This document shows, piece after piece, positions 29,218-36,415 of a stretch of DNA of 36,415 nucleotides (its first letter is position 1; each line of letters begins with the position of its first letter). The DNA is from Planctomycetaceae bacterium (GTDB taxonomy: Bacteria > Planctomycetota > Planctomycetia > Pirellulales > UBA1268). The DNA lies in NCBI GenBank assembly GCA_011523305.1, contig WTHB01000084.1, forward strand, positions 1 to 36,415, written 5' to 3'. Under the pieces are notes generated by a model. The model made no database searches. It saw nothing but the letters and a program-made list of their open reading frames with translations, and had not been told where the DNA came from. The translations under genes were made by a program, and so were the position numbers.

Positions 29218-30516
29218 CTACGCCGCCTCGCCCGTTCGCTGGAGTGGCTGCTGCCACGCGGCCATGGCTTCATCGGGCTGCCAGGCAACCGCTGGGCTGT
29301 GGTGACTGAGGTCGAGCGGCTCGACCCGGCCCGCGTCACCCATCACCGCCAGGCCCCGCGGACTGGCGGGCCGCAGTGCCGGCACCGCCGGCTGAACGAG
29401 TTTGACATCGACGGTCTCGCCGCTCACCAGGCCGACTTCGCTCGTTACAGCGAGTGGTCGGCCTAGGCAGCGGCTGACAACAGCTTCACCCCACGCGGCA
29501 GCCTGCACCGCCTCAGTAGGATGCCCCAGCAGCAGGCCCGCTGGATCGGTGACATCATCCGGGCCAGATGATCTGTCAGCCGTTCCGCAGAGATCAGCGA
29601 GGAGGGCCTCGGCGTGTCCCTCGTCACTCGGGGCCTCCAACGCACCTGCAAACCGGCCCACAAAATCAAACTGGCAGGGCACCTGCACCTGGCTGCAGAC
29701 CGCCTCGCGGTGCCAGGCCTTCACCGCCTTTTTCCACTGCGTGGCCAAGCGCGTCGCCCAATCCTGACTGCCACCGGCTGCCTGCGGCAAGAATCGCTGC
29801 CAAAACAGGTCAGGGACTTCCAGCGGATGACTCTCCGCCAGCAGTCGGAGGCCGTCTGCTGTGACGCCGGCGACCCGGGCGGCCCCATCAAGGACTGCCG
29901 CAGCGAAGCGGGCCAGCAGGCCAACCGTGAGCAACTGCGAAAAGCTGGGGGTGTCTGCCTGGTCGCGTTGGCTGTGGTGCAAGGGCCCGAACCGCTGACC
30001 GTGCTCAATCTGCCAGCCGTATCCCTGCCACTGTTCGGCCCAGTGCACTTGCTGCCATTCCGGCGTCGCCGCCTCCAGAAACCCGTCGCGATCACCCGCC
30101 AGCAGCGTGATGCTGACCGGCACCTTGACCGGCTGTCGCAGGTAGGGCCGGCCCTGGGCCGTCGCGGCGGGCACCACCAGGCCATCGGCCAGCAGCTGCC
30201 GGGCCTGCCGCAGCAAGGGGGCAGCCCGTCGCAGGGCGGCTGCCGCAACCTGACGGCGAATGGTGGCCACGCGGGTGGAACGGTTCCACGGTCGCAGGTC
30301 ATCAGTAACCCACTGCTGGCTACTGAGCAGGTCGCAGGTGTCCCCGGCGAAGACGATATCGAGCCGGTCGATCGGCGCGTAGTGCCCGTCGTGGCGAAAG
30401 CCGGCCCGCAGGGCGGCCCGCTGCACCGCACCCCAGGTGCGGGCGACCAACCCTCGCAGTGGCCGTCGCCACAGGGAGCCGTCTGTGATATTCCAATTCG
30501 CGGTGACCACCAGCAT
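29218..30516 (-). CDS. Metallophosphoesterase-like protein with altered active-site motifs
   Basis: About 432 residues from ATG 30516, preferred because GGAG lies eight to nine bases upstream; the frame extends to a GTG at 30624 without a ribosome site. The pattern resembles calcineurin-type phosphoesterases: an N-terminal strand VVTANWNITDG where the family has a D-x-H motif, RLDIVFAGDTCDLL with GDxxD at 58-62, TLLAGDRDGFLE (138-147) where GNHD/E is expected, and IEHGQRFGPLHH (170-181) where the late HGH motif is expected. The first motif lacks the usual His and the third has GDRD rather than GNHD, so metal binding may be changed or lost. The rest is Ala/Gln/Trp-rich and unrecognised. It is cytoplasmic. 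It abuts the glmM-like gene tail to tail. The assignment is by motif order only; an unrelated protein remains possible. Confidence 0.6.
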   Translation of the reverse strand: MLVVTANWNITDGSLWRRPLRGLVARTWGAVQRAALRAGFRHDGHYAPIDRLDIVFAGDTCDLLSSQQWVTDDLRPWNRSTRVATIRRQVAAAALRRAAPLLRQARQLLADGLVVPAATAQGRPYLRQPVKVPVSITLLAGDRDGFLEAATPEWQQVHWAEQWQGYGWQIEHGQRFGPLHHSQRDQADTPSFSQLLTVGLLARFAAAVLDGAARVAGVTADGLRLLAESHPLEVPDLFWQRFLPQAAGGSQDWATRLATQWKKAVKAWHREAVCSQVQVPCQFDFVGRFAGALEAPSDEGHAEALLADLCGTADRSSGPDDVTDPAGLLLGHPTEAVQAAAWGEAVVSRCLGRPLAVTSEVGLVSGETVDVKLVQPAVPALRPASPRGLAVMGDAGRVEPLDLSHHSPAVAWQPDEAMAAWQQPLQRTGEAA

Positions 30517-30660
30517 GCCGGCTTCTCCAGCGTGACCCACCGTGGGTCGCTCTGGGAAAGTTCGGCAAAGAAAACCGGCTGCCGTGAGCAGGCCACAGAG
30601 CAGGTGAGCCTGTGGCGGTCGCACCGGCTGTGCCGTGGGACCATCACGCCGCTGCCAACG

Positions 30661-32055
30661 CTAGTCAATGACCGGCAGGCTGCCGTTGGCTCGGCCGGCG
30701 AGGGCACGGTGCACGGCGGGGTCGATATCAAAACCAAAGGTTTCGATTCGGCCGTCCCCGAAGGCCATATTGAAGCCACGAGCGTGGGCACTGCCGTAGG
30801 AATTGTTGTGAAACTCCCCGGCCGTGTCTGGCTTCGGTGGTTCACTCCCCCAGCGAATATTGCTGCTGGAATAGCCTGAATAGAGCACGCCGGCGTCACC
30901 TGGGTCTTGGCCCGTCTCATAGTGATCGGCTGCAACATACTTTTCCCCAAGCAGGTAGACGTTCCCCATACCGTCGAGCACCTTGGCCGAGGCGATTCGG
31001 CCCATCCGGGTGATCACTCCATCCTGAAGATCGGGAATGCCCGAGTCGGCCAGCTCGAGCCGCTCCATCGTCGTGCTGGAATACCAGAGGTCACCGTCAG
31101 CGACCGTGCTTGGTGTATAAATACTGCTATCGATGGGGTTTGTGCAGGAGGGCTTGTTGGGGCAACCACCTACCCTGTCGAGATCATGATGCAGGTGCCC
31201 CGCGTGGCCATGGTTACTCGTGAACGCATTCCACGAAATAACAATCTCGGTGCATTTATCAGGATCGTTACCGGGCATGTGACCAATCAGGACTTTCTGT
31301 TGGCTATCGACGTGTCCATACTTCCGTACGACTTTGGGTGAGAAGCAGACGCCATACGAACCACCGTTCGCGGCATAGTCGGTGCGGGTCGCTTCCGACA
31401 ACGACACCTGCAGGTTGACCGCCGTCCGGAAGTAGGTGTTCCCACCGCCACTTCCACCACCATTTCCGCCACCATTTCCGCCACCTGAATTCAGGCCTGC
31501 GAACATAACGTTCGTGCCACTTGAGGTTTCCACCACACTACCACTTGTGCTGCTCTGCAGTGACGTCATGTCGATCGGCAACGGGTTGACATGCCGGCGA
31601 GACGGACAGTTGAACATCGGCACATTCGCGACCGCAAGTGCCTGATAGGCAGACTCGGCCGTCGCCGAGGTCACACCCTCAACTGAGCCATGGAGCCCTA
31701 ACTCCTCAATGTACGGCAGGATGTTATATGTCCAGCCGCCTGGCTGCCGGCCATCGGCGGTACGTTCTGCCACGCCCAGCCAGAGTGGGCTCCAACCACC
31801 TGTGAGGATGTAACCGGTTTTCGATTCATGCTGCAGAATCCCCAGACTCATTTGCCGGAGGTGGTTCTTGCACGAACTGTTGCGGGACGCCTCGCGAATT
31901 GCCTGGACTGCCGGCAATGCAATAGCCATCAACACCGAAATGATGGCGATGCCGACGATCAGTTCGATGAGCGAAAACGCCTTCCGGACCGTGCCACGCT
32001 GACGGTGGGTGCTTGCTGAAGTCGAAACGGGATAGCGTGTGAAGCGGGTCATCAT
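30661..32055 (-). CDS. DUF1559 protein, array member 4 (Gly-rich linker)
   Basis: About 464 residues if started at ATG 32055, which has AAGG about nine bases upstream; the next codon is also ATG. The frame stays open upstream to 32208 without a convincing start. The prepilin-like segment is KAFSLIELIVGIAIISVLMA, preceded by an unusually long polar leader of some 25 residues (RYPVSTSASTHRQRG). DUF1559 follows, with GGWSPLWLG, QPGGWTYNILPYIEE and NVYLLGEKYVAADHYETG blocks that recur in the next two array members. A low-complexity Gly/Asn linker of about 15 residues is encoded by 12-bp tandem repeats (31457-31486). It is presumably a surface pseudopilin-like protein of unknown role and the most downstream gene of the array. 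Confidence 0.88.
   Translation of the reverse strand: MMTRFTRYPVSTSASTHRQRGTVRKAFSLIELIVGIAIISVLMAIALPAVQAIREASRNSSCKNHLRQMSLGILQHESKTGYILTGGWSPLWLGVAERTADGRQPGGWTYNILPYIEELGLHGSVEGVTSATAESAYQALAVANVPMFNCPSRRHVNPLPIDMTSLQSSTSGSVVETSSGTNVMFAGLNSGGGNGGGNGGGSGGGNTYFRTAVNLQVSLSEATRTDYAANGGSYGVCFSPKVVRKYGHVDSQQKVLIGHMPGNDPDKCTEIVISWNAFTSNHGHAGHLHHDLDRVGGCPNKPSCTNPIDSSIYTPSTVADGDLWYSSTTMERLELADSGIPDLQDGVITRMGRIASAKVLDGMGNVYLLGEKYVAADHYETGQDPGDAGVLYSGYSSSNIRWGSEPPKPDTAGEFHNNSYGSAHARGFNMAFGDGRIETFGFDIDPAVHRALAGRANGSLPVID
31457..31486. repeat. 12-bp tandem repeats encoding a Gly-rich linker
   Basis: Two exact copies of CCACCATTTCCG (31457-31468, 31469-31480) are followed by a partial third, with degenerate copies just before (31442-31456). 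The unit is a multiple of three, so copy-number change would lengthen or shorten the Gly/Asn linker of the DUF1559 protein without a frameshift. Confidence 0.7.
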
Positions 32056-32341
32056 TCCACCAGCCTTTCTGCAGTCGGGCGCCTTTGCCTCCACCCGTCC
32101 TTTCAAACTGGGCAAACCGCGCGCCAATGGCATCCGTTGCCTCAAATTGATTCCGAACGTGATTTTTCGGGCACAAGTTGAGGGCCCTGATTTCTGCCGC
32201 TGCGGCAAAATGCCTCATGCAGGGCAATTTGCGACGGCAACGGGTTCGGGGAGCCCAGGAATTGTGCCGCGAACGTTTCGCCCTCCAGTGCATTATTTGC
32301 GTTGCCCGAAGGTCAGTACAGTTTCATGGGCAGTTTTGACC

Positions 32342-32398
32342 TGTCTGGGGAGACACGCCGACAGGACACCTGGGGACAGTTCCACGCATTGACCCCTG
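32342..32398. repeat. Palindromic intergenic sequence with GGGGACAG motif
   Basis: TGTCT/AGACA (32342-32346 with 32351-32355, loop GGGG) makes a small hairpin, and CTGTC (32341-32345) can alternatively pair with GACAG (32360-32364). It is followed by TGGGGACAGTTCC and, 12 bases further, GACCCCTGTGG. From memory, GGGGACAGT-type sequences often border REP-associated transposase elements. No transposase is present here, so this may be a decayed remnant. Confidence 0.35.
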
Positions 32399-32425
32399 TG
32401 GCATTGCGGCACCATCTGCCCACGC

Positions 32426-32506
32426 AAGCCCGAACCGTGAGCCAGGGTAGGGTGCGACGTTTGCACCTCAGCCAATCCGCATTCCCTCACCCTGCGGTTC
32501 GGGCTT
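32426..32506. repeat. Nested inverted repeat / possible structured RNA or REP-like element
   Basis: AAGCCCGAACCG (32426-32437) and CGGTTCGGGCTT (32495-32506) form a perfect 12-bp outer stem. Inside, AGGGT (32444-32448) pairs with ACCCT (32489-32493), and GGTGC (32451-32455) with GCACC (32463-32467). TTTT (32505-32508) follows on the plus strand. The gene on the left strand ends at 32542, so the element lies directly downstream of a DUF1559 gene and could protect or end its mRNA. It resembles paired extragenic palindromes. No function is established. Confidence 0.6.
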
Positions 32507-32541
32507 TTGTGACGACATTGCCAGATCGTCACTTCTCGGCA

Positions 32542-33789
32542 CTAGAAATTACCGAGCACTTCGCCTTCGAAACGGGGTGTCTTTGCGGCAAGGTTCTTAT
32601 GAACCTCTGGGTCAATGTCGTAACTCATTGACCGGACAGAGCCGTCTCCAAAGGCCGCGTTCCAGACTTCGGCATGAGCGCTGCCGAATGCATTCAACCA
32701 CTCCTCGCCGTCTGCATCCGATTGTGGCGGTTCACTCGCCCAACGAACGTTACTCGCCGAGTAGCCGGCATAGAGGATCGAATTATCTCCCCGATCAACG
32801 CCTCCGTCATACCCATCCGCTCGAACATACTTTTCAGCGATGAGGTAGACATTGGAAAGGCCGTCGAGAACAGCTCCGGCCTGCACCTTTCCCATGCGGT
32901 CAACCATTCCGTCTTGCAGATCGGGAACTCCCGACTCACCCAACTGACTGATGCGCTGACTTTTTCGCCACCGTCTTTTTTCATCACCATCATCAAGATC
33001 TGTGGGGGCGTACAGGATTGCATCCATGAACTCGGTACACGGCCCACTCGTGTCACAGCGTCCAATCGTGTCATGTGGGTGATTCGCATGACCGCTCAAT
33101 GCGGACACAGGAACCAGGATTTCGTTGCAGTTACTTGGGTTGCCCGGCGGCCTGTGCGCAAGCCGCACTTTGCCACTACCGCCAGTGCCGACCAAGGCGA
33201 TAAACTTCTTGATTGGCATTTCAATACAGGCGCCCATCGACCCGCCGCTGGCAGCGTAATCGCAGCGAGTGGCCTGGGTGATTGTGACCGTCGCATCATT
33301 GCCTCCAAACGATGTTCGGAAGCGCACTCCGGACTCTTCATTATCAACACCAGCAAGGGCCTCGCCACCACGCCGCGACGGGCAACCAAACGAAGCGACA
33401 GGTGCTTCGCATAATTGCTCATACGCCGTCTGAGCATCCGCTGCAGAAAGCACGCCGTCCTGCAAGACTACCTCTTCGATATATGGCAAGACGGTGAACG
33501 TCCACCCACCTGGCTGGCTTGAGTCGCTCGCTCGATCCGGAGTTCCCAGCCAATTTTCACTCCACCCGCCCGTGGGAAAGTAGCGGTGCTGCGACTCGTG
33601 CTGAATCATGCCCTTGGCCAACTGAGCCAGGTGGTTTCTGCAGGACGTGCGGCGGGCACCCTCCCGGGCTGATTGCAGTGCAGACAGCAGCATGCTGAAC
33701 ATCACGCTGACCACTCCGATGACCACAATCATCTCAAGCAGCGTAAAACCGCTGCGGCGCGGCTGTTGTAGCGTCTTCCATCGACTCAT
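32542..33789 (-). CDS. DUF1559 protein, array member 3
   Basis: About 415 residues from ATG 33789, supported by GGAG eight to nine bases upstream; the frame is open much further (to 34152) but that part overlaps the neighbouring gene. The prepilin-like segment is RRSGFTLLEMIVVIGVVSVM, with the usual Gly before Phe and Glu at +5 but an atypical LLEMIVV core. DUF1559 follows (LQSAREGARRTSCRNHLAQLAKGMIQHESQ). It shares with the two flanking array members the blocks GGWSENWLG, SQPGGWTFTVLPYIEE, NVYLIAEKYVRADGYDGG, SNVRWASEPP and AFGDGSVRSMSYDIDPEVHKNLA, so the three are clear paralogues. It is presumably exported and surface-exposed. An upstream element contains TTGACA and a small inverted repeat. 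Confidence 0.9.
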   Translation of the reverse strand: MSRWKTLQQPRRSGFTLLEMIVVIGVVSVMFSMLLSALQSAREGARRTSCRNHLAQLAKGMIQHESQHRYFPTGGWSENWLGTPDRASDSSQPGGWTFTVLPYIEEVVLQDGVLSAADAQTAYEQLCEAPVASFGCPSRRGGEALAGVDNEESGVRFRTSFGGNDATVTITQATRCDYAASGGSMGACIEMPIKKFIALVGTGGSGKVRLAHRPPGNPSNCNEILVPVSALSGHANHPHDTIGRCDTSGPCTEFMDAILYAPTDLDDGDEKRRWRKSQRISQLGESGVPDLQDGMVDRMGKVQAGAVLDGLSNVYLIAEKYVRADGYDGGVDRGDNSILYAGYSASNVRWASEPPQSDADGEEWLNAFGSAHAEVWNAAFGDGSVRSMSYDIDPEVHKNLAAKTPRFEGEVLGNF

Positions 33790-33845
33790 CCATGCGTCTC
33801 CATAGGTCGCCGGAGGGGCCCCTGCCTCACCAACCCTTTCAATCC

Positions 33846-33876
33846 TAGCCGATCGTTTTGTCAAGCAAAACGCAGG
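33846..33876 (-). promoter_or_regulatory. Upstream element of a DUF1559 gene (TTGACA within an inverted repeat)
   Basis: On the minus strand CTTGACA (33859-33865) lies inside the inverted repeat CGTTTTG/CAAAACG (33854-33860 with 33866-33872). It is flanked by CCTGCGTTT (33868-33876) and ATCGGCTA (33846-33853). The same three blocks occur in the same order upstream of the DUF1559 gene at 24725-25627. A matching -10 box at normal spacing is weak here, so a regulatory site or an unusual promoter is possible. Confidence 0.4.
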
Positions 33877-33961
33877 CGTATCGAGCGTCCACAAAAAACC
33901 AGTGGGCCGCGAGAAAAGGCGTATCCCGATACAAAACGGGCCCGCGGGACACTGTTGACTG

Positions 33962-35125
33962 TCAGAACGCCTCAAGCACTTCGCCGGCATATCGTGGTGC
34001 CCGTACAGCAAGATTCTTATGCGTCTCGAGGTCGATCTCCAACGAAATGGACCTGACCGATCCGTCTCCGAGGGCAACATTAAACACCCCAGGGTGGGAC
34101 GACCCAAAGATATTTGGGTGATCTTCGTCGGTGTCTTGCAGAGGTTCCTCACTGGCCCAGCGGATGCTGCTACTGGAGAACCCGACCATCATCGGCTGGG
34201 TGTCGCCTGGGTCCGTGCCTGTCTCATATTTTGTTTCGTTGATGTACTTCTCGCCAACCAGATAGACGTTGGAGAGTCCATCTAGGACGTTGCCTGCAGT
34301 CACCTGGCTCATGCGACAACCCATGCCGTTCCCGAGAGAGGGCACACCGTAATCGGTAGCGAAGGTTGTGCCTGCCACCGCTTGGTATGCCTGACTCGCC
34401 CATGTTGCGCCCTGATTCATCGTTGTCGGAGACTGCGCTACCGCATCGACCCCGGTGTCTTCCGCGCCGCAAGGCCCAAGAGTGGCGCCGTTGTACGCAC
34501 CCCCACGAACCAGAGCACTTACTGCAACTGTTGACCCGCCTCCTCCGACACAGATTGGGACGCTGCTGGAATGGAGTGCCGCTGGCAATGCCGCGGCGTA
34601 GTCGTTTCCATCACCGCCCCAGGTAATTGAACCGCCGTTGAGGCAATAGTCTGTCCGAGCCGCTGAGGAAATCGTTACGTTGCTTGGCGTTTTGAAAGAC
34701 GTCGTTGAAACCGGCTTAGGTGTCGGCGGCCGCCTAGTTGGGCACGTAAAGATTAAACCTGTTTCTTCGCACAGAGCCACATAGTCTGCGACGCTGGCCG
34801 TCGAGGGCACGGAGTTGTACAGGTTTTTCTGTTCGGTGAACGGAAGAATTGCGTAAATCCATCCACCAGGCTGAGACTTGCCGACTGGACCAGCTGAGCC
34901 AAGCCAATCCTTCCCCCAGCCACCTGAAGGAAACTTTCGATGCTGGCTTTCATACTGGATGATGCCCTTCGCAATTTGTCCAAGTTGGCTCGAACAGTAG
35001 GTTCGCCGCGATGATTCACGAGCCGTTTGGACGGCCGGAATCGACAATGCAGCAACGATGCCAATGATGGCAATCACGACAAGAAGTTCGATCAGGGTGA
35101 AACCACCAAGACTAGGCTTTGGCAT
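33962..35125 (-). CDS. DUF1559 protein, array member 2
   Basis: 387 residues. ATG 35125 puts the prepilin signal at the very N-terminus (MPKPSLGGFTLIELLVVIAI), a canonical form with Gly before Phe and Glu at +5. DUF1559 continues with IPAVQTARESSRRTYCSSQLGQIAKGIIQYESQ, then GGWGKDWLG, SQPGGWIYAILPFTE, NVYLVGEKYINETKYETG, SIRWASEEP and VALGDGSVRSISLEIDLETHKNLA. The C-terminus (PRYAGEVLEAF) closely matches that of array member 3 (PRFEGEVLGNF), supporting tandem duplication. It lies 41 bases after array member 1 and is probably co-transcribed with it. The downstream gap to array member 3 is 172 bases and holds GC-rich palindromes (around 33940-33955) but no clean intrinsic terminator. Confidence 0.92.
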   Translation of the reverse strand: MPKPSLGGFTLIELLVVIAIIGIVAALSIPAVQTARESSRRTYCSSQLGQIAKGIIQYESQHRKFPSGGWGKDWLGSAGPVGKSQPGGWIYAILPFTEQKNLYNSVPSTASVADYVALCEETGLIFTCPTRRPPTPKPVSTTSFKTPSNVTISSAARTDYCLNGGSITWGGDGNDYAAALPAALHSSSVPICVGGGGSTVAVSALVRGGAYNGATLGPCGAEDTGVDAVAQSPTTMNQGATWASQAYQAVAGTTFATDYGVPSLGNGMGCRMSQVTAGNVLDGLSNVYLVGEKYINETKYETGTDPGDTQPMMVGFSSSSIRWASEEPLQDTDEDHPNIFGSSHPGVFNVALGDGSVRSISLEIDLETHKNLAVRAPRYAGEVLEAF

Positions 35126-35166
35126 CGGTGAAGCCCCTTGTCGTGCCGTTTACAAAATCAAGATTC

Positions 35167-36114
35167 TTAATTGAGATCAGATTCATTAAGGAGCCCCGGC
35201 GCCCAAACAGCCCCGACTGAATCTTTTGAAGAGTCTGATGTTACGATCTGCGCGTAAACACTTGCAGCAATATTTTCAGAGAGAAACCGCGTATGCCCGT
35301 CGCAGAAAACGACCTGGGCTCCGCCGTAGTGACCAGATGATGGGTAGAGTGTAAAAGCGGTTGTGTTGTTGATAATGTTGCCAGCTGGCACAGTCGCTCC
35401 GAGCCCGAAAATTGGAGCCGTCGAATAATCATCAAGCAGACGCCCACTCGCCTGAATGCTTGTCACGGGCATCGTGTCATTCCAACTGGCTAGGCTTGTC
35501 ACCGCAGGCCCGCCCCGCTCCGCAATCAAAAGCGTGGTTGGGGTTCCATCAGCCGACGAGATAGCATCAAGACTGAGTGTCCGCGGCTGAACACCCACAG
35601 CACCGACCGCATCAAACATGACACCGTCGCCTGACCACTGTGAACTGCCGCTACAGGCCGTGGTTCCGCCATTGCCTGCATAGGCTAGTTCTGAGCCACC
35701 CTGAGCTGCGGGTGCAGAAGGGCAGCGATAGAACGGCAACTCAACCGACGGTGGTACAAGGGAGTCTGGAATACCATTGCCGCTGCCATCGGCAGTTTTG
35801 CATGCCTCGTAGACATCTTTTCGCTCCATCATCGGAAGGATCGCGATGGCCCATGATCCCTTCGTAATGGCGCTGTCATTCTTAGGGAGATCGATCCGCC
35901 AGCCCGGCAAACCGTTTTTCTTGCCTTCGAAGTTGATGATGCCGTACCCAATCTGTTTCAGGTTATTTTCACAGGCATTCCGACGGCCAGCCTCTCGGGC
36001 ACTCTGCACCGCTGGCAAAAGTAGCCCCATGAGGATGCCGATCACTGCGATGACAACAAGCAGCTCAACAAGGGTGAAGCCTGCGGGCTGTGAATGGGAT
36101 GGTTTTCGTGGCAT
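35167..36114 (-). CDS. DUF1559 protein, array member 1
   Basis: 315 residues from ATG 36114, chosen for the GAGGTGATC ribosome site just upstream and because it places the prepilin segment (PAGFTLVELLVVIAVIGILM) near the N-terminus. DUF1559 follows as PAVQSAREAGRRNACENNLKQIGYGIINFEG, with the terminal block AQVVFCDGHTRFLSENI of the H-x9-DG type. It is shorter than the other three array members and lacks their GGW and NVYLxGEKY blocks. It belongs to the more common DUF1559 subtype, closer to the protein at 24725-25627. It is the first gene of the leftward array after the partial gene at the window edge. The upstream 193-bp gap (36115-36307) has T-rich plus-strand tracts but no clear promoter or terminator. 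Confidence 0.93.
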   Translation of the reverse strand: MPRKPSHSQPAGFTLVELLVVIAVIGILMGLLLPAVQSAREAGRRNACENNLKQIGYGIINFEGKKNGLPGWRIDLPKNDSAITKGSWAIAILPMMERKDVYEACKTADGSGNGIPDSLVPPSVELPFYRCPSAPAAQGGSELAYAGNGGTTACSGSSQWSGDGVMFDAVGAVGVQPRTLSLDAISSADGTPTTLLIAERGGPAVTSLASWNDTMPVTSIQASGRLLDDYSTAPIFGLGATVPAGNIINNTTAFTLYPSSGHYGGAQVVFCDGHTRFLSENIAASVYAQIVTSDSSKDSVGAVWAPGLLNESDLN

Positions 36115-36307
36115 CTGATCACCTCGCTTGATTGAGGATTCCTGGTTGTGGTGAATGGCCCCCACCTGCCCCGTCACTGCCTGTTGCCCCAACGCTTGGT
36201 GAATCATAACGGCAATTCCGGTGGCTGTGTGCGGCCCTGTTGTTTCTTTTTGGTTTGCTTTGATTGGAGCGGCTGTTTTTTTGTCGGCTGGTTTGCTGGT
36301 CTCTGCC

Positions 36308-36415
36308 CTAATGCGGCACAAATGTCTGTCGCACCGTCACCTGCCGCACCTGCCGGCTGGACGGCTCATAGACGCGGATGCGGACCTCAATGCCCCGAAG
36401 CGGGTACGGGTAGGG
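36308..36415 (-). CDS. C-terminal 35 codons of a gene cut by the window edge, possibly pseudopilin-like
   Basis: Reading leftward from the window edge, one frame is open for 35 codons to a TAG at 36308-36310. It includes RGIEVRIRVYEPSSRQVRQ and ends TFVPH. The pattern of a strand followed by 'RVYEPSSRQVRQVTV' near the C-terminus resembles, from memory, the ends of planctomycete GspJ/type II secretion-like pseudopilins. The gap to the next start (193 bases) makes co-transcription with the DUF1559 array possible. The family call is tentative. Confidence 0.55.
   Translation of the reverse strand, partial: PYPYPLRGIEVRIRVYEPSSRQVRQVTVRQTFVPH

Follow-up and report, generated by a model that had tools for sequence, protein, structure and literature searches.

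A decayed doublet of inverted REP hairpins behind a planctomycete DUF1559 gene, probably a relic of a RAYT-mobilised repeat

Introduction

In a Planctomycetaceae bacterium, the 3' end of a DUF1559 gene is followed by a perfect 12-bp inverted repeat that encloses further helices. The question raised by this locus is whether it represents a mobile repeat, a structured RNA, a terminator or a chance palindrome. An initial annotation read it in the first place as paired extragenic palindromes, with a structured non-coding RNA or a 3' stabiliser of the DUF1559 transcript as alternatives. The window, that is the whole stretch of 36,415 nucleotides analysed here, is the entire contig C79 of the host assembly (G000; 3.49 Mb in 195 contigs).

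Several described systems are relevant for comparison. REPINs were defined in Pseudomonas fluorescens as REP doublets that form hairpins (PMC3116915). REPs with GTAG or CGTC tags and their head-to-head (HH) dimers have been catalogued, and Rhodopirellula baltica is listed there with several families (PMC3733652). Class 3 TnpA-Y1 proteins occur in Planctomycetes, Acidobacteria and Proteobacteria, carry the motifs NHVH, W[TA] and Y....Q and are flanked by structures with a CnGA foot; the class is described from few sequences, with flanking structures termed 'atypical' (PMC6006769). A RAYT enzyme is reported to cut single-stranded REP beside the hairpin (PMC8266576).

Results

Sequence and fold of the element

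The arm AAGCCCGAACCG occupies positions 32426-32437 and its exact reverse complement positions 32495-32506, the sole perfect 12-bp inverted repeat with a loop of at most 60 bases in the window. Since at least one such repeat is found in 16.5% of dinucleotide shuffles of the window (n=200, mean 0.19), the 12-bp arms by themselves are weak evidence. That frequency is what a chance inverted repeat without history has in its favour; this reading is refuted by the full-length homologues in the host and in other genomes described below, and we give it practically no weight. The minimum-energy fold of the window copy consists of the 12-bp outer stem and inner helices, as the initial annotation had described for the DUF1559 gap. 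As RNA of the plus strand the 93-nt element folds with -49.3 kcal/mol (z -6.2), and none of 200 shuffles is as good; the RNA of the minus strand reaches z -5.5 and the DNA z -5.7, again with 0/200 shuffles as good as the DNA fold. The further claim that each arm is followed by AGGGT was borne out in both halves, with a gap of 6 bases on the left and 1 base on the right. The features are collected in Table 1.

Table 1. Coordinates of the element, its parts and the adjacent genes in the window.
Feature	Position	Strand	Basis or remark
REP doublet (REPIN-like, head-to-head, tags outside), whole element	32426..32506	.	R1 model match; related copies in the genome by BLAST
Left half-unit, decayed, 3 mismatches to unit pattern	32428..32449	+	18/24 consensus positions kept
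Right half-unit GCCC-GA-ACC-GCAG-GGT-GA-GGGA, 1 mismatch to unit pattern	32483..32504	-	21/24 consensus positions kept
Left arm of perfect 12-bp repeat, CCGA foot at 32430-32433	32426..32437	+	foot from sequence
Right arm of perfect 12-bp repeat, CCGA foot at 32499-32502 on the - strand	32495..32506	-	foot from sequence
Spacer between halves, 5-bp inverted repeat GGTGC 32451-32455 / GCACC 32463-32467	32450..32482	.	sequence
DUF1559 ORF (PF07596 and N_methyl)	32542..34152	-	Pfam; codon score puts the likely start nearer 33732
Next DUF1559 gene, same strand	30661..32055	-	Pfam; start by codon score

The window copy is much decayed. It keeps 81% of the consensus arm positions, compared with a mean of 92% for nine other host doublets and 99% for ten doublets of the congener G007. 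The inner stem of its left half-unit reads ACC/GCC and is unpaired, and the CCC of the two halves is preceded by GCAAG and AAAAG. Arm-to-arm copying could explain why the left half, without a stem of its own, is a perfect match to the right half over 12 bp. The element is closely followed on its 3' side, at about 32509-32532, by a short inverted repeat GTGACGA ... TCGTCAC, which bears no significant likeness to the linker of other copies.

The stop codon of the ORF at 32542-34152 is 35 bases from the end of the element. Four pseudopilin-like ORFs with DUF1559 and N_methyl domains stand in a row on the minus strand (30661-36321). For the gene at 29218-30624, 3 of 9 congeners carry an orthologue (53% identity), and the contigs end too soon for a comparison of the DUF1559 site.

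A dispersed family in the host genome

A 121-bp BLAST query has matches at 12 places of the host genome including the window copy, so that the genome search suggested with the annotation found a sequence that is not unique. The copies read as one element, two inverted 22-base half-units of the form GCCC-GA-NNN-GNRA-NNN-GA-GGG-A, and in ten host doublets, the window copy among them, the unit starts lie 53-55 bp apart (about 54). The arrangement varies: C184 carries two doublets 130 bp apart, and other units are single. Allowing at most two mismatches, the half-unit pattern gives 50 matches in the host against 15 for a reversed-pattern control; a longer pattern with at most one mismatch gives 21 against 0. 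After filtering for at least 10 of 12 core bases, which leaves 226 units over the genomes searched, 33 half-units belong to the host.

A covariance model, R1, was built from 30 other doublets of seven genomes (alignment A2), leaving out the window copy. Its single match in the 36,415 bases is 32426-32506, with 47.1 bits (E 4e-8) on the plus strand and 40.7 bits on the minus strand. The identity of the element is thus settled by its membership in a dispersed family and not by the inverted repeat alone. A larger BIME-type unit including a linker was rejected for this locus. Several host copies (C105, C145, C137, C45) share such a linker, but the flanks of the window copy are unlike it (background fraction 0.15 upstream and 0.94 downstream), and therefore no linker is claimed here.

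Each half-unit is a small hairpin

Among the 226 units the inner stem is GGC/GCC in 103, AGC/GCT in 67, ACC/GGT in 7 and of other types in further units; 11 have an unpaired GCC/GCC. Conservation of the loop is partly built in, because the search pattern favours a GNRA-type loop. Of the cells that make up the two local hairpins in the doublet alignment, 96.4% are paired, and the covariation score of these hairpins lies above all 500 shuffles, which is modest evidence given the few changes (3 two-sided cells). For the long stem joining both halves, covariation shows no excess over shuffles. One long hairpin as the selected form was rejected, since it lacks covariation above shuffles and, at one of its pairs, 28 of the 29 sequences with letters there cannot form the pair. 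The long hairpin is the most stable fold of the window copy, and R1 was built on it because the long stem holds both halves together. The two halves thus fold separately, each into a small hairpin on a CCGA foot and closed by a GNRA-type loop, and they stand head to head.

Genomic placement of the copies

Gene prediction relied on a simple script that scores codons and had the window, 89% of it coding, as its training set. For the host locus set (n=20), two-mismatch matches that looked like chance, for example those in C7 and C22, were left out. None of the 20 loci overlaps a predicted gene. Where both neighbours could be read (n=19), 10 copies lie between convergent genes, 6 between genes of the same direction and 3 between divergent genes. 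In G007, with 82% coding, 3 of 49 clusters overlap predicted genes.

At C69 of the host genome a single unit stands just behind the stop codon of a gene in a convergent pair; here the unit pattern was used, since the doublet model R1 does not see this single unit. The convergent pair is kept in G004 without the unit (protein 87% identical, next DNA stretch 73% identical), with an intergenic space otherwise too diverged to be called an empty site. The gene is also present in G002, G005 and G009 with no unit nearby, and G007 has a doublet further downstream.

Spread among relatives

The nearest named relatives of the host assembly among the genomes compared are planctomycetes. R1 matches doublets in 20 of 59 genomes, a patchy distribution among related genomes, and has no match in 7 of the 10 genomes of the host genus; per-genome counts cover no more than the 79 candidates scored in each. 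The longer pattern is found in 6 of the 59 genomes (G000 21, G004 5, G007 97, G011 2, G018 4, G049 81). A scan of named genomes gave 67 stretches, which come from WB5_5_029, WB6_4_048, Blastopirellula marina DSM 3645, itself a member of the Pirellulales, and three further MAGs. One of these three bears the name Candidatus Kuenenia stuttgartiensis; its Pirellulales-type units (L154, L166, L191, L215; CAMDDA records) suggest that the label is wrong or the bin mixed.

In G007 the about 97 half-units (L131-L150) are very uniform, and conservation reaches about 20 bases past the doublet on each side. G028 holds at least 79 doublet matches, many of identical score (60.6 bits). These identical scores suggest a recent burst in a genome that has a RAYT gene beside such doublets (L222).

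RAYT transposases in related genomes

Genome G049 has two Y1 transposase ORFs that are bracketed by exact units in inverted orientation, with about 600 bp from one unit to the other. A profile of 15 RAYT proteins (A1) matches in 21 of 59 genomes. The host genus gave no match in any of its 10 genomes, whether searched by PF01797, by one RAYT protein or by the 15-row profile, and because of this we infer the enzyme for the host doublets from other genera. Over the 59 genomes, RAYT and doublet occur together in 13, RAYT only in 8, doublet only in 7 and neither in 31. The one-sided Fisher test for co-occurrence gives p 0.001, and 0.015 within the family, values that are not strictly valid as the genomes are related. 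At 9 of the 15 RAYT loci, unit-like hairpins, doublets or inverted units are found beside the gene, and all doublet matches at E<=1e-3 lie within about 210 bp. The other 6 rows of the profile (L219, L220, L225, L227, L234, L237) have neither a doublet match at E<=1e-3 nor a flanking unit pair.

In the alignment of the 15 proteins the second His, the Tyr and the Gln are invariant and the first His is kept in 14; by motif, Y....Q is present in 15/15, H-x-H in 14/15 and NHVH in 6/15, and W[TA] is not clear. An AlphaFold model of the RAYT protein has pLDDT 84, and 28 of its 28 fold matches at E<=1e-3 are IS200/IS605-type transposases, including 4er8, a RAYT bound to its REP hairpin. This likeness comes from the fold comparison alone, as the RAYT profile finds no match among PDB sequences. 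NCBIfam matches of the RAYT ORFs stay below the cut-offs, and the ORF at L112 reaches 22.2 bits, just below the Pfam cut-off of 23 bits, which L111 passes.

The hairpins of 6 out of 8 RAYT loci read have a CnGA foot and two are without it. Four loci, L221 (G025), L222 (G028), L223 (G050) and L226 (G021), each have their own hairpin variant around a GNRA-type loop. In these RAYT-linked families of other genera both sides of the stem differ: L221 reads CCCCC-GGC/GCC-GGGGG, with CC/GG pairs in place of the GA/GA mismatch, and L223 reads CCT/AGG. It looks as if hairpin and RAYT change together across loci.

Discussion

Comparison with known systems

Similar to the class 3 TnpA-Y1 REPtron-like systems (PMC6006769), the family has a planctomycete host, a CCGA foot before a short hairpin and multiple intergenic copies, and the associated proteins in relatives carry H-x-H, NHVH and Y....Q at the frequencies given above. 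Their placing in class 3 is by these motifs only, with W[TA] not clear, and not by the published class HMM. Unlike class 3 systems, the host genus is without such a gene and hairpins at two of the eight RAYT loci have no CnGA foot.

With the REPINs of P. fluorescens (PMC3116915) the family shares two inverted REPs with a spacer, an intergenic position, the link to RAYT in relatives, and the occurrence of singles and tandem clusters. In contrast to these REPINs, the host genus shows [N]AAG before CCCGA with no GTAG tag, and the copy number is low. Likewise, the head-to-head dimers with tags outside, the heterodimers of two subtypes and the position mostly near gene 3' ends resemble the GTAG REP families (PMC3733652). 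In contrast to those, the host genus has no GT[AG]G at the foot, and [CG]TAG before the hairpin is mainly found in G049 and Blastopirellula marina. A literature search by unit sequence strings returned no planctomycete paper by title.

A relic of a mobile REP doublet and the alternatives

We conclude that the element is very probably the decayed remnant of a mobile, non-autonomous repeat in which two inverted REP hairpins form a doublet of the REPIN/BIME type, a relic once mobilised by a class-3-type RAYT. The family is a repeated intergenic palindrome that occurs as an inverted pair with conserved spacing. A RAYT gene in the same genome is found in other genera and in neither G000 nor 9 congeners. 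The proposal of paired extragenic palindromes is supported by the 12 BLAST places, the ten inverted pairs, the 0/20 loci in predicted genes and the relatives that flank RAYT genes. A class-3-type RAYT would recognise each hairpin as folded single-stranded DNA via its foot, cut beside the hairpin and bring copies of the doublet to further sites between genes. The host genus may have lost its RAYT, or the gene may be unassembled, and the window copy would be a relic left to drift where its insertion, past the DUF1559 stop codon, was tolerated. REPs without RAYT have already been discussed in terms of gene loss (PMC6006769). Since both the GTAG tag and a RAYT gene in the genome are missing, we file the element as a RAYT-less relic and not as a functioning REPtron. 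Against the REPIN reading speak the absence of RAYT matches in the host genus, the 7 of 20 doublet-positive genomes that have no RAYT match and the 8 of 21 RAYT-positive genomes without doublets; moreover, in the window copy the left hairpin is broken and the flanks are unlike the linker at other copies, and the C69 comparison gives no clean empty site. An unlikely variant is that the host genus keeps its REPIN population without a Y1 transposase, in which case the young-looking copies of G007 (about 97 half-units) would be copied by an unrelated enzyme or kept uniform by the host for a function.

A conserved structured RNA of DUF1559 genes, either a 3' UTR stabiliser or a small RNA repeated by happenstance, could account for the distance to the stop codon and for a fold that is strong on both strands, and other REP elements are reported to make mRNAs more stable (PMC6006769). 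We consider it improbable, given that Rfam gives no match up to E 1 in 32000-32800, that covariation fits short local hairpins and not one long RNA stem, and that R1 finds nothing in 7 of the 10 genomes of the genus. Furthermore, convergent genes stand on either side of 10 of the 19 copies for which both neighbours were read, with a DUF1559 context examined at a minority of these. The position near a gene end and between convergent genes, together with a strong GC-rich stem, would also suit an intrinsic or bidirectional transcription terminator. This is a very unlikely reading: the scan has no terminator-like site at the element, no run of at least 5 T follows the stem on either strand, and the two-hairpin architecture with relatives flanking RAYT genes is not a feature of terminators. 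The same scan has no promoter-like site at the element. As a short, non-autonomous sequence with terminal inverted repeats that is dispersed between genes, the element also resembles a MITE of a classical DDE insertion sequence with 12-bp terminal inverted repeats. Here, however, the ends are hairpins with a foot that are found as singles and as tandem doublets, and the gene between two copies encodes a Y1 HUH transposase, so that we rate a MITE as low as a terminator.

Implications for the family

A dispersed REP doublet, of the kind that a domesticated transposase spreads within bacterial genomes, is a known type of element, and a single copy such as that of the window is ordinary; its setting, a planctomycete genus without detectable RAYT in a little-studied group, is mildly new. 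Beyond the single locus, one planctomycete order offers a series: RAYT genes are flanked by matching hairpins, doublets reach high copy number, the hairpin type differs by compensation between RAYT loci, and in one genus the doublets seem to outlive the gene. With this series, direct tests become possible of how class 3 enzymes recognise foot and loop and of what happens to doublets once the RAYT is lost.
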